Assembly: GCF_017565425.1 (NCBI RefSeq)
Contig: NZ_JAGEMK010000002.1
Span: 1-64,000, forward strand
Direction: 5' to 3'
DNA length: 64,000 bases
Source of the DNA: Actinotalea soli
Lineage (GTDB): Bacteria > Actinomycetota > Actinomycetes > Actinomycetales > Cellulomonadaceae
Positions 5,241-41,724 of the stretch are shown piece after piece. The notes beneath the pieces were generated by a model that saw nothing but the letters and a program-made list of their open reading frames with translations, ran no database searches and was not told where the DNA came from. A program made the position numbers and the translations under genes. Position 1 is the stretch's first letter. Every line of letters begins with the position of its first letter.

Positions 5241-5290
5241 CTCGTGTCAGAACCTGAGGTCGCCCCAGGTATCCCAGGTTCTGACACGAG
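5241..5290. repeat. 50-bp palindromic repeat, copy 1
   Basis: A perfect 16-bp inverted repeat (CTCGTGTCAGAACCTG / CAGGTTCTGACACGAG) around an 18-bp loop. It lies between convergent genes and could act as a bidirectional terminator. It differs from the copy at 5607-5656 by one loop base. Three more diverged 50-bp members lie inside the E2 gene at 41069, 41267 and 41339. Confidence 0.95.
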
Positions 5291-5606: not shown

Positions 5607-5656
5607 CTCGTGTCAGAACCTGAGGTTGCCCCAGGTATCCCAGGTTCTGACACGAG
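5607..5656. repeat. 50-bp palindromic repeat, copy 2
   Basis: Same 16-bp arms as copy 1, with one C-to-T change in the loop. It starts 9 bp after the last gene of the ectoine degradation operon (minus strand, stop at 5666) and is well placed to be its terminator. Confidence 0.95.
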
Positions 5657-40128: not shown

Positions 40129-41637
40129 TCAGCCCCAGACCAGGCCCTGGCCCGGCTCCTCGAGGATCGCCGCGACGTCGGCCAGGAACCGCGAGCCCAG
40201 GCCGCCGTCGATCAGCCGGTGGTCGAAGGACAGCGCGAGCTGGGTGACCTGACGGACCTTGATCTTGCCCTTGTGCACCCAGGGCTGGTCCCGGATCGCC
40301 CCGAAGGCGAGGATCGCGGACTCCCCGGGGTTGAGGATCGGGGTGCCGGTGTCGATGCCGAAGACCCCGACGTTGGTGATGGTGATGGTCCCGTCGGACA
40401 TCGCCTGGGGCGTGGTGCGGCCCGAGCGCGCGGTCGCGGTGAGGTCCGCGAGGGCGACGGCGAGGTCGTGCAGGGTCATGCGGTGGGCGTCCTTGATGTT
40501 CGGGACGATCAGCCCCCGCGGGGTCTGGGCCGCGATGCCCAGGTTCACGTAGTGCTTGTACTCGATCTCCTGGGTCTCGTCGTGCCAGCTCGCGTTGACC
40601 TCGGGGTGGCGGCGTACCGCGAGCATGAGGGCCTTCGCGGCGATGAGCAGCGGCGTGACGCGCACGTCGGCGAACTCACGGTCCTGGCGCAGCCGGGCGA
40701 CCAGGCGCATCGTCTTGGTCACGTCGACCGTGTGGAACACCGACACGTGCGGGGCGGTGAAGGCGCTGGCGACCATGGCCTCGGCGGTGCGCTTGCGGAC
40801 GGACTTGACCGGGACGCGGGTCGCCCGGCCGTCGTCGGTCACGGTGCCCGAGGCGAGCCAGGGCTGGTCGTCCCCCGCGTAGGTGGCCAGGGTGCGCGGC
40901 TCGTTCTCGTTGCTGCGGGCCAGCACGTCCTCGCGGGTCACGATCCCACCCGGCCCCGTCGCGTTCACCGTGGCCAGGTCGATCCCCAGGTCCTTGGCGA
41001 GCTTGCGGACCGGCGGCTTCGCCAGCACCGGACCCATCCCGCCCGTCGTGGCGCGCGACGCCCCCGCGCTCGTGTCAGAAGCAGGGATACCCACAGGCCC
41101 CTGAGCGTCTGACGCGAGATCGGGGGTGGCGGCGGGGGCGGGGGGGACGTTGGGGGGGGACGTGGGGTTGGCGGGGGCGCTGCGACGCGCGCGGCGGGAG
41201 GCGCTGTGCCCGACGACGCCGTACCCGACCAGCACCGCGCCGCTCGCCGACTCCCCCTCCCCCCCACTCGTGTCAGAAGCAGGGATACCCAGAGCATCCC
41301 CAGGCTCTGACACGAGATCGGGGGTGGGCTGGCCAGAGCTCGTGTCAGACGCTGGGATACCCCCAGCACCCTGAGGTTCTGACACGAGGTCGGGGGTGGT
41401 GTCGATGGTGATGATGGGGGTGCCGACGTCGACGGTGGTGCCGGGCTCGAAGAGCAGCTCGGTGACCACGCCGGCGTAGGGGCAGGGCAGCTCGACGAGG
41501 GACTTGGCGGTCTCGACCTCGAGGATCGGCTGGTTGACCACGACCCGGTCGCCGACAGCGACCTTCCACTCGACGATCTCGGCCTCGGTCAGGCCCTCAC
41601 CGGCGTCGGGAAGGCGGAACTGCTCGTACCTGGGCAC
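40129..41637 (-). CDS. Dihydrolipoamide acyltransferase (E2) of a 2-oxoacid dehydrogenase complex
   Basis: A 502-residue E2 enzyme. The lipoyl domain (about 1-80) has the lipoyl lysine in EVETAKSLVE. The peripheral subunit-binding domain is VRKLAKDLGIDLATVNATGPGG near residue 210, and the catalytic domain ends with the active histidine in LSFDHRLIDGG. The linker between lipoyl and subunit-binding domains is unusual: three 17-residue segments (DLVSEP/DLASDA ... GIPASDTS) are encoded by three 50-bp palindromic repeats inserted in the same frame. E1 genes lie upstream; no E3 gene is present here. Substrate may be branched-chain 2-oxoacids or pyruvate. GTG start with GAGGAG upstream. Confidence 0.92.
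   Translation of the reverse strand: MPRYEQFRLPDAGEGLTEAEIVEWKVAVGDRVVVNQPILEVETAKSLVELPCPYAGVVTELLFEPGTTVDVGTPIITIDTTPDLVSEPQGAGGIPASDTSSGQPTPDLVSEPGDALGIPASDTSGGEGESASGAVLVGYGVVGHSASRRARRSAPANPTSPPNVPPAPAATPDLASDAQGPVGIPASDTSAGASRATTGGMGPVLAKPPVRKLAKDLGIDLATVNATGPGGIVTREDVLARSNENEPRTLATYAGDDQPWLASGTVTDDGRATRVPVKSVRKRTAEAMVASAFTAPHVSVFHTVDVTKTMRLVARLRQDREFADVRVTPLLIAAKALMLAVRRHPEVNASWHDETQEIEYKHYVNLGIAAQTPRGLIVPNIKDAHRMTLHDLAVALADLTATARSGRTTPQAMSDGTITITNVGVFGIDTGTPILNPGESAILAFGAIRDQPWVHKGKIKVRQVTQLALSFDHRLIDGGLGSRFLADVAAILEEPGQGLVWG
41069..41118. repeat. 50-bp palindromic repeat, copy 3 (inside E2 coding sequence)
   Basis: A diverged member: outer arms CTCGTGTCAGA / TCTGACGCGAG, with the GGGATACC core shared with the other copies. 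On the minus strand it encodes LASDAQGPVGIPASDTS in the E2 linker. Confidence 0.9.
41267..41316. repeat. 50-bp palindromic repeat, copy 4 (inside E2 coding sequence)
   Basis: Outer arms CTCGTGTCAGA / TCTGACACGAG with the GGGATACC core. It encodes LVSEPGDALGIPASDTS in the same frame as copies 3 and 5 (198 and 72 bp apart, both multiples of 3). Confidence 0.92.
41339..41388. repeat. 50-bp palindromic repeat, copy 5 (inside E2 coding sequence)
   Basis: Arms CTCGTGTCAGA / TCTGACACGAG with the GGGATACC core. It encodes LVSEPQGAGGIPASDTS directly after the lipoyl domain. Only 22 bp separate it from copy 4. Confidence 0.92.
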
Positions 41638-41724
41638 TGGCGCGCTCCTCGGTCTCGTCGTCCTGGTGGACTCGTCGTCGTGCGGTCGGTGGTGCGGCTC
41701 GCGTGTGCGGCCCGTGGGTCGACG

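Follow-up and report, generated by a model that had tools for sequence, protein, structure and literature searches.

Palindromic elements inside and between genes of Actinotalea soli: a candidate new actinobacterial family of protein-coding palindromes

The Rickettsia palindromic elements (RPE) were reportedly described by Ogata et al. in 2000 and 2002. In the portions of the literature available to us, coding palindromes are known from Rickettsia, Wolbachia and the archaeon Methanocaldococcus jannaschii (PMC10969869, PMC2996958, PMC2229807), and RPE-like coding palindromes are also treated in a further paper (PMC6649704). PARCELs, in the accessible part of their description, are dyad-symmetric repeats of coding sequence (Roske et al., 2010; PMC2996958). 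As for REPs tagged with GTAG or CGTC, the available part of their survey has them adjoining gene ends and also occurring inside ORFs, many of them in genes for DNA synthesis and repair and some in RNA helicases (Di Nocera et al., 2013; PMC3733652).

The palindromes considered here, hereafter dyads, lie in a window of 64,000 nucleotides (the whole stretch of A. soli DNA that was analysed), three of them within the gene of an E2 acyltransferase. They are best read as protein-coding palindromic elements, which are a known kind, of a new actinobacterial family that is perhaps spread by a module whose protein is AbiEi-like and DUF559-like. The E2 segments are probably copies of a palindromic element, dispersed and restricted to its lineage, that would be spread by a partner, would insert without regard to reading frame, and would then be sorted by selection on codon phase.

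As in Rickettsia, Wolbachia and M. jannaschii, in so far as the available parts of those papers go, the palindromes are found both between genes and in frame within conserved genes, in non-structured segments and with a conserved peptide. Such a dual location is seen in a first set of 312 dyads, comprising some of those present in 14 genomes, 90 of which lie inside 61 called genes. The dyads span 42-50 bp and RPE 105-150 bp; the two are set apart by description, not by sequence, the dyad family differing in its fixed 7-bp tags, genome-specific cores, tandem spacing of about 61 bp and candidate nuclease partner. Several features of the dyad family are, as far as known, new for protein-coding palindromes. 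PARCELs resemble the dyads in being coding and dyad-symmetric but, in the part of their description at hand, are 25-residue amphipathic repeats arranged in tandem tracts within ORFs.

The likeness to tagged REPs, again as partly documented, is that of short tagged palindromes found mostly near gene 3' ends and sometimes in ORFs, and the dyads in HrpA and Mfd closely parallel the REPs hosted by repair and RNA-helicase genes. However, the dyad tag is another one (TGTCAGA/TCTGACA, not GTAG/CGTC) and is itself part of the dyad; neither GTAG nor CGTC was seen in the base tables of the dyad flanks. Moreover, the Y1 transposase domain (Y1_Tnp, PF01797) was found in none of the 61 family genomes searched and in only three of 99 genomes overall, all three in other families. 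Because the RAYT (Y1) family is absent from these 61 genomes, the dyads are not classical REPs, and membership of the REP/RAYT system was rejected on this ground and on that of the tag. A literature search on actinobacterial palindromic repeats, intragenic REPs and RAYTs returned, within the library searched, no report of this dyad family.

The E2 linker and its relatives

All three 50-bp dyads of the E2 gene lie in the linker that joins the lipoyl domain to the E3-binding domain and have the architecture CTCGTGTCAGA-N28-TCTGACACGAG (Table 1). They are read in one codon phase, CTC GTG TCA GA, giving the peptide L(V/A)S(E/D)...GIPASDTS; the copy at 41069 differs by one base in the tag, its coding strand reading CTCGCG. 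A preliminary description of the window had placed three 50-bp palindromes here, sharing one frame at spacings of 198 and 72 bp, and two intergenic members of the same family at 5241 and 5607; each of these statements is borne out. A G-rich direct repeat in the same linker (GGGGGGGACGTTG/GGGGGGGACGTGG, positions 41140-41165) bears no relation to the dyads, and a search of Rfam with positions 40900-41700 of the window gave only two matches, both far under the gathering score.

Table 1. Positions of the E2 gene, of the dyads of the window and of the candidate partner gene
Feature	Position	Strand	Remarks
E2 acyltransferase gene, 502 aa	40129..41637	-	ORF and Pfam; host of three in-frame dyads
Pfam domains of E2			residues: Biotin_lipoyl 5-78, E3_binding 204-239, 2-oxoacid_dh (catalytic) 272-497
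Dyad copy 1, site A	41339..41388	-	residues 84-100, LVSEPQGAGGIPASDTS
Spacer between copies 1 and 2, 22 bp	41317..41338	-	start-to-start 72 bp
Dyad copy 2, in tandem at site A	41267..41316	-	residues 108-124, LVSEPGDALGIPASDTS
Dyad copy 3, site B	41069..41118	-	residues 174-190, LASDAQGPVGIPASDTS
Intergenic dyad	5241..5290	.	tag about 10 bp past a stop codon
Intergenic dyad	5607..5656	.	tag some 14 bp away from the next gene's stop codon
Small predicted ORF between the two intergenic dyads, 89 aa	5311..5580	-	gene caller
Candidate partner gene of this genome	L214 2233-3168 (C32 about 155432-156367)		flanked by two tandem dyad pairs

With at most one mismatch, the half-site CTCGTGTCAGA occurs 11 times in the window against 1.94 expected, a count matched by none of 100 shuffles; ten of these occurrences are in the five dyads and one is elsewhere. 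The paired pattern with exact tags was observed four times, against 0.00 expected. At the scale of the 3.63-Mb genome (G000), the scan with an element model that the preliminary description had envisaged revealed 66 exact copies of the paired pattern (0 for the reversed control) as well as further coding insertions. The half-site CTCGTGTCAGA occurs 67 + 67 = 134 times in the genome; when a longer element with the same ends was sought, these 134 half-sites were, among the matches listed, all inside dyads.

Empty sites, also envisaged earlier, do exist. The E2 comparison took in 16 of 19 sequences of the genus, namely this genome, Actinotalea sp. C106 (G005, the nearest relative found), one partial sequence without the linker and 13 linkers free of the segment; among 80 named E2 loci, some of them without the linker, a dyad was found in C106 only. 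The HrpA insert is likewise present in this genome and C106, and its site is empty in the other nine of the 11 genus sequences aligned, many genus members having short HrpA loops without trace of the insert. One relative with an empty site was found for the loop of the TlpA-like protein and one for that of the P-type ATPase. It is therefore hard to credit that the E2 segments are an ordinary repeat-rich linker that never received an insertion: the E2 linkers of the relatives compared do vary in length and composition, but the same DNA element is also found between genes and in unrelated genes, and relatives lack the segment in both E2 and HrpA.

The E2 of C106 (L025) has three dyads too, one at site A and a tandem pair at site B, this genome having two at site A and one at site B, with tandem steps of 72 bp in both strains. 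The layout thus differs between the strains, and tandem copies have therefore been gained or lost since the split from C106. It had been argued that, 50 bp not being a multiple of three, each insertion must have added or lost flanking bases; this stands in spirit rather than to the letter, site A having one unit more than in C106 and the tandem step being 72 bp instead of 50 or 61.

Differences in gene content between this genome and C106, by gain or loss, also coincide with dyads, an observation that lacks a control for regions far from dyads. The loci are L108 2920-3030 vs L185 835-2521, L173 2515-3851 vs L177 3953-4064, and L112 vs L186; dyads that form a tandem pair in one of the strains lie on either side of two genes in the other. 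The integron-like cassette reading prompted by these loci was set aside as control-free.

Anatomy, distribution and possible functions of the dyads

Each half-site comprises 21 bp, the fixed 7-bp tag (TGTCAGA) and 14 bp of inner sequence characteristic of the genome, and two such half-sites stand inverted. The outer tags TGTCAGA/TCTGACA were the search query, so that the constancy of the tag is by construction; the 28 bp between the tags vary among genomes, except that this genome and C106 resemble each other. A loose dyad pattern was found in 19 of 99 genomes including this one (the reversed control matched once, in G035), and a stricter pattern of fixed length in 38 of 200 genomes and 11 of 25 genera of the family, which we infer to be Cellulomonadaceae in the GTDB sense, with 0 for the reversed control in each row. 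Presence is patchy within genera. A search for palindromes with other tags in 17 dyad-poor members of the genus, over about 14-15 kb per genome where reported, revealed no recurrent family, by a weak method that missed the dyads of two of six control loci and four of five in a third.

When the inner arms were compared with the best arm shuffle among copies, pairing was no better in five of six genomes, and G050 alone beat every shuffle; pairing is thus mostly not what is kept. The two halves would mostly act as independent half-sites with a genome-specific consensus, which fits recognition by a protein and not an RNA hairpin.

By location, dyads are mostly found near gene 3' ends and also inside conserved genes. 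For 217 intergenic dyads with both neighbours called (five rows with an uncalled neighbour were dropped), the neighbours are convergent in 88 cases, unidirectional in 98 and divergent in 31, and many intergenic dyads of this genome stand 10-30 bp from a stop codon. Such a placement, together with strong hairpins (for example -35.1 kcal/mol, z -7.80), a tandem spacing near 61 bp that recurs in several genera and the better pairing in G050, speaks for functional DNA or RNA sites under selection, such as bidirectional terminators, 3'-end hairpins or protein-binding sites, of which the coding copies would be by-products. We regard this as unlikely, given the unexceptional arm pairing in the five other genomes, the absence of a T-run in the 14-bp flanks, the patchy presence within genera, and two genomes in which all copies are read inside called genes (G183, L308-L312, 7/7; G192, L313-L314, 3/3). 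Covariation gave no support to a terminator, the arm shuffles being exceeded in G050 only, and no T-run was seen.

No transposition event was seen directly, and singletons of six genomes (4 to 26 each) showed no excess of direct repeats, hence no target-site duplication of the kind expected for a MITE of a DDE transposon. The flanks of dyads are partly conserved, intergenic copies included.

Codon phase and host genes

All 104 dyads found in ORFs, in nine genera, are in one phase, xTG TCA GAx...TCT GAC A. This total (51 + 6 + 39 + 8) includes six copies from HrpA genes of other genomes, sought within a gene, and eight among 25 dyads of further stretches; nine of the 90 copies in the first set carry two mismatches in their tags, and a few of the 104 stand near a called start (e.g. 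L235 2032, L225 2066) and could precede the true one. Of 442 strand readings taken by themselves, 400 are free of stops in phase 0 and 397 in phase 1 (167 and 170 of 182 in the next genomes), and 441 are interrupted by a stop in phase 2. Phase 0 is nevertheless used by none of the 104 copies; were both open phases tolerated alike, the probability that even 40 independent insertions agreed in phase would be about 1e-12. With the gene-calling codon model, trained on this window, frames of at least 200 codons that span a dyad score as coding-like (>0) on either side of it in 67 of 223 cases for phase 1 and in 0 of 138 for phase 0. The longest spanning frames, of at least 500 codons, number 48 in phase 0 vs 127 in phase 1, a control that initially appeared to conflict with the single phase. 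Given their low third-position GC (median 0.72), their non-coding scores and this lack of both-flank passes, the phase-0 frames are taken for chance ORFs of GC-rich DNA.

The peptides of the two open phases are unlike: mean hydropathy (GRAVY) is -1.26 for the coding phase vs -0.08 for phase 0, and cysteine is found in none of 81 coding readings, in most readings of phase 0, and in the phase-1 readings of intergenic copies in 10 of 12 genomes. In the reading preferred here, insertion would be blind to the reading frame, and selection would retain only the copies that keep the frame and whose phase encodes a polar loop of 14-17 residues devoid of cysteine; the loops so retained would sit in protein linkers and loops. 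That the phase is instead set by the insertion mechanism, through a target sequence correlated with codon phase, would account for a count of 104 out of 104, extreme for selection alone, and for the flanks partly conserved even at intergenic copies. It is nonetheless quite improbable: no target duplication was found, and the peptide of the unused phase is cysteine-bearing and more hydrophobic, which makes strong purifying selection plausible.

The common codon phase also makes the spacings of in-gene tandem pairs (up to 80 bp) multiples of three in 15 of 15 cases (54, 60, 63, 69, 72), whereas 58 of 65 intergenic pairs are at 61 or 62 bp start-to-start, both counts leaving out copies with two mismatches. 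The commonest in-gene spacing, 72 bp (7/15), is about one helical turn above the intergenic one, and the tandem spacer is of near-constant length and variable sequence.

All 25 host genes submitted to Pfam match curated families, from which the protein names used here are read. E2 hosts dyads in seven genomes of four genera (G000, G005, G023, G050, G176, G183 and G186, both G050 copies and one G183 copy having two tag mismatches) and HrpA in eight of 30 genomes examined, plus G158. Further hosts are Mfd, MaoC-like, ClpC-like, SMC, NuoG-like and PutA-like proteins, and P-type ATPases of three genomes. The SMC of G186 (L302 1336-3894) has its in-frame dyad at residue 229, inside the SMC_hinge match (166-285). 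The idea that the E2 case is a rare one thus has to be abandoned, with 104 in-ORF copies spread over nine genera and hosted by E2 in seven genomes and by several further conserved proteins; the proposal that an intergenic repeat has been turned into protein-coding sequence in an actinobacterium, much as in Rickettsia, is supported at the level of sequence comparison.

This genome and G023 belong to different genera and have unrelated cores, yet they have four host genes in common (E2, HrpA, Mfd and MaoC), and the dyad loci that were read, 46 and 11 respectively, include no common intergenic one; between genera at large, two pairs of intergenic loci are common, vs several host genes. The pattern of the two genomes is not what random insertion would lead one to expect, and it counts against the reading preferred here. 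The common host sites are either old, with rewritten cores, or loops that were re-used. Some evidence favours an old common set of sites whose inner sequence was homogenised genome-wide, by gene conversion, over repeated insertion: the same genes, and in HrpA one and the same loop, carry unrelated inner sequences in three genera (g1, g6 and g23), and in Mfd (L122/L151), whose gene DNA is 95% identical between the strains, C106 has a same-length non-palindromic segment at the dyad of this genome, which looks like the decay of a shared copy. Homogenisation remains rather doubtful, since in all 13 pairs compared between this genome and C106 a core is closer to its orthologue than, on average, to its paralogues, so that the process is not fast, and many genus members have short, trace-free loops.

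A candidate partner and what the family may mean

If the segments are dispersed elements, as we prefer, the dyad copies would be non-autonomous, and a partner that recognises the half-site would spread or renew them. The best candidate is the product of a gene that recurs between dyads, in two contexts, a protein with an AbiEi-like N-terminal part (profile match, E 6.3e-21) and DUF559-like nuclease residues at its C-terminus, resembling AbiEi-family regulators and DUF559 nucleases, respectively. Pfam AbiEi_4 and DUF559 match only one of three partner proteins, both below the cut-off; residues E209, D241, E255, D257 and H261 are invariant, and the C-terminus presumably has a likeness to Vsr.

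Homologues of the partner were found in six of 375 loci (G000, G060, G124, G135, G158 and G186), all six beside dyads and five flanked on both sides, and none in 165 dyad-free loci (919 kb, partly overlapping). Many of the stretches searched were picked around dyads, with little beyond dyad neighbourhoods, and this adjacency is therefore partly ascertained. G124 is taken as Isoptericola sp. BMS4 and G158 as Krasilnikoviella flava, and G105, also in the family, as Luteimicrobium album. The frame is open in three of the genomes (G000, G124, G186) and looks broken in the other three (G060, G135, G158). There are two chromosomal contexts: G000 and G186 share one, with what we take to be ppk-like and Nudix-like genes, and the four others share a second, with presumed response-regulator-like and ABC-transporter-like genes. 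Since dyads adjoin the gene in two different chromosomal places, gene and dyads are best read as a module. No relatives of the partner were found in solved structures or on plasmids, NCBIfam gave no match, and of 140 matching stretches in viral contigs none was confirmed.

By analogy with RAYTs, the candidate may move or renew the dyads. A fuller version of this reading, which we put forward only tentatively and at somewhat less than even chances, is a REP/RAYT-like partnership in which an AbiEi-DUF559/Vsr-like enzyme would recognise the fixed-tag dyad and renew a fast-changing, genome-specific core, protein-coding genes, in one codon phase, being a main habitat. We know of no link of AbiEi-family regulators or DUF559/Vsr-like nucleases to dispersed palindromes.

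Coding palindromes, best known, in the sources as available, from Rickettsia, Wolbachia and one archaeon, now have an actinobacterial family whose copies can reach dozens in a genome, and the many sequenced relatives of its bearers allow comparison. How a DNA repeat enters central proteins such as SMC, Mfd, HrpA and E2, why it does so in one codon phase, and what moves such elements in genomes where the known REP transposase is lacking can now be tested, the nuclease-like gene beside the dyads being a concrete candidate for their mover.
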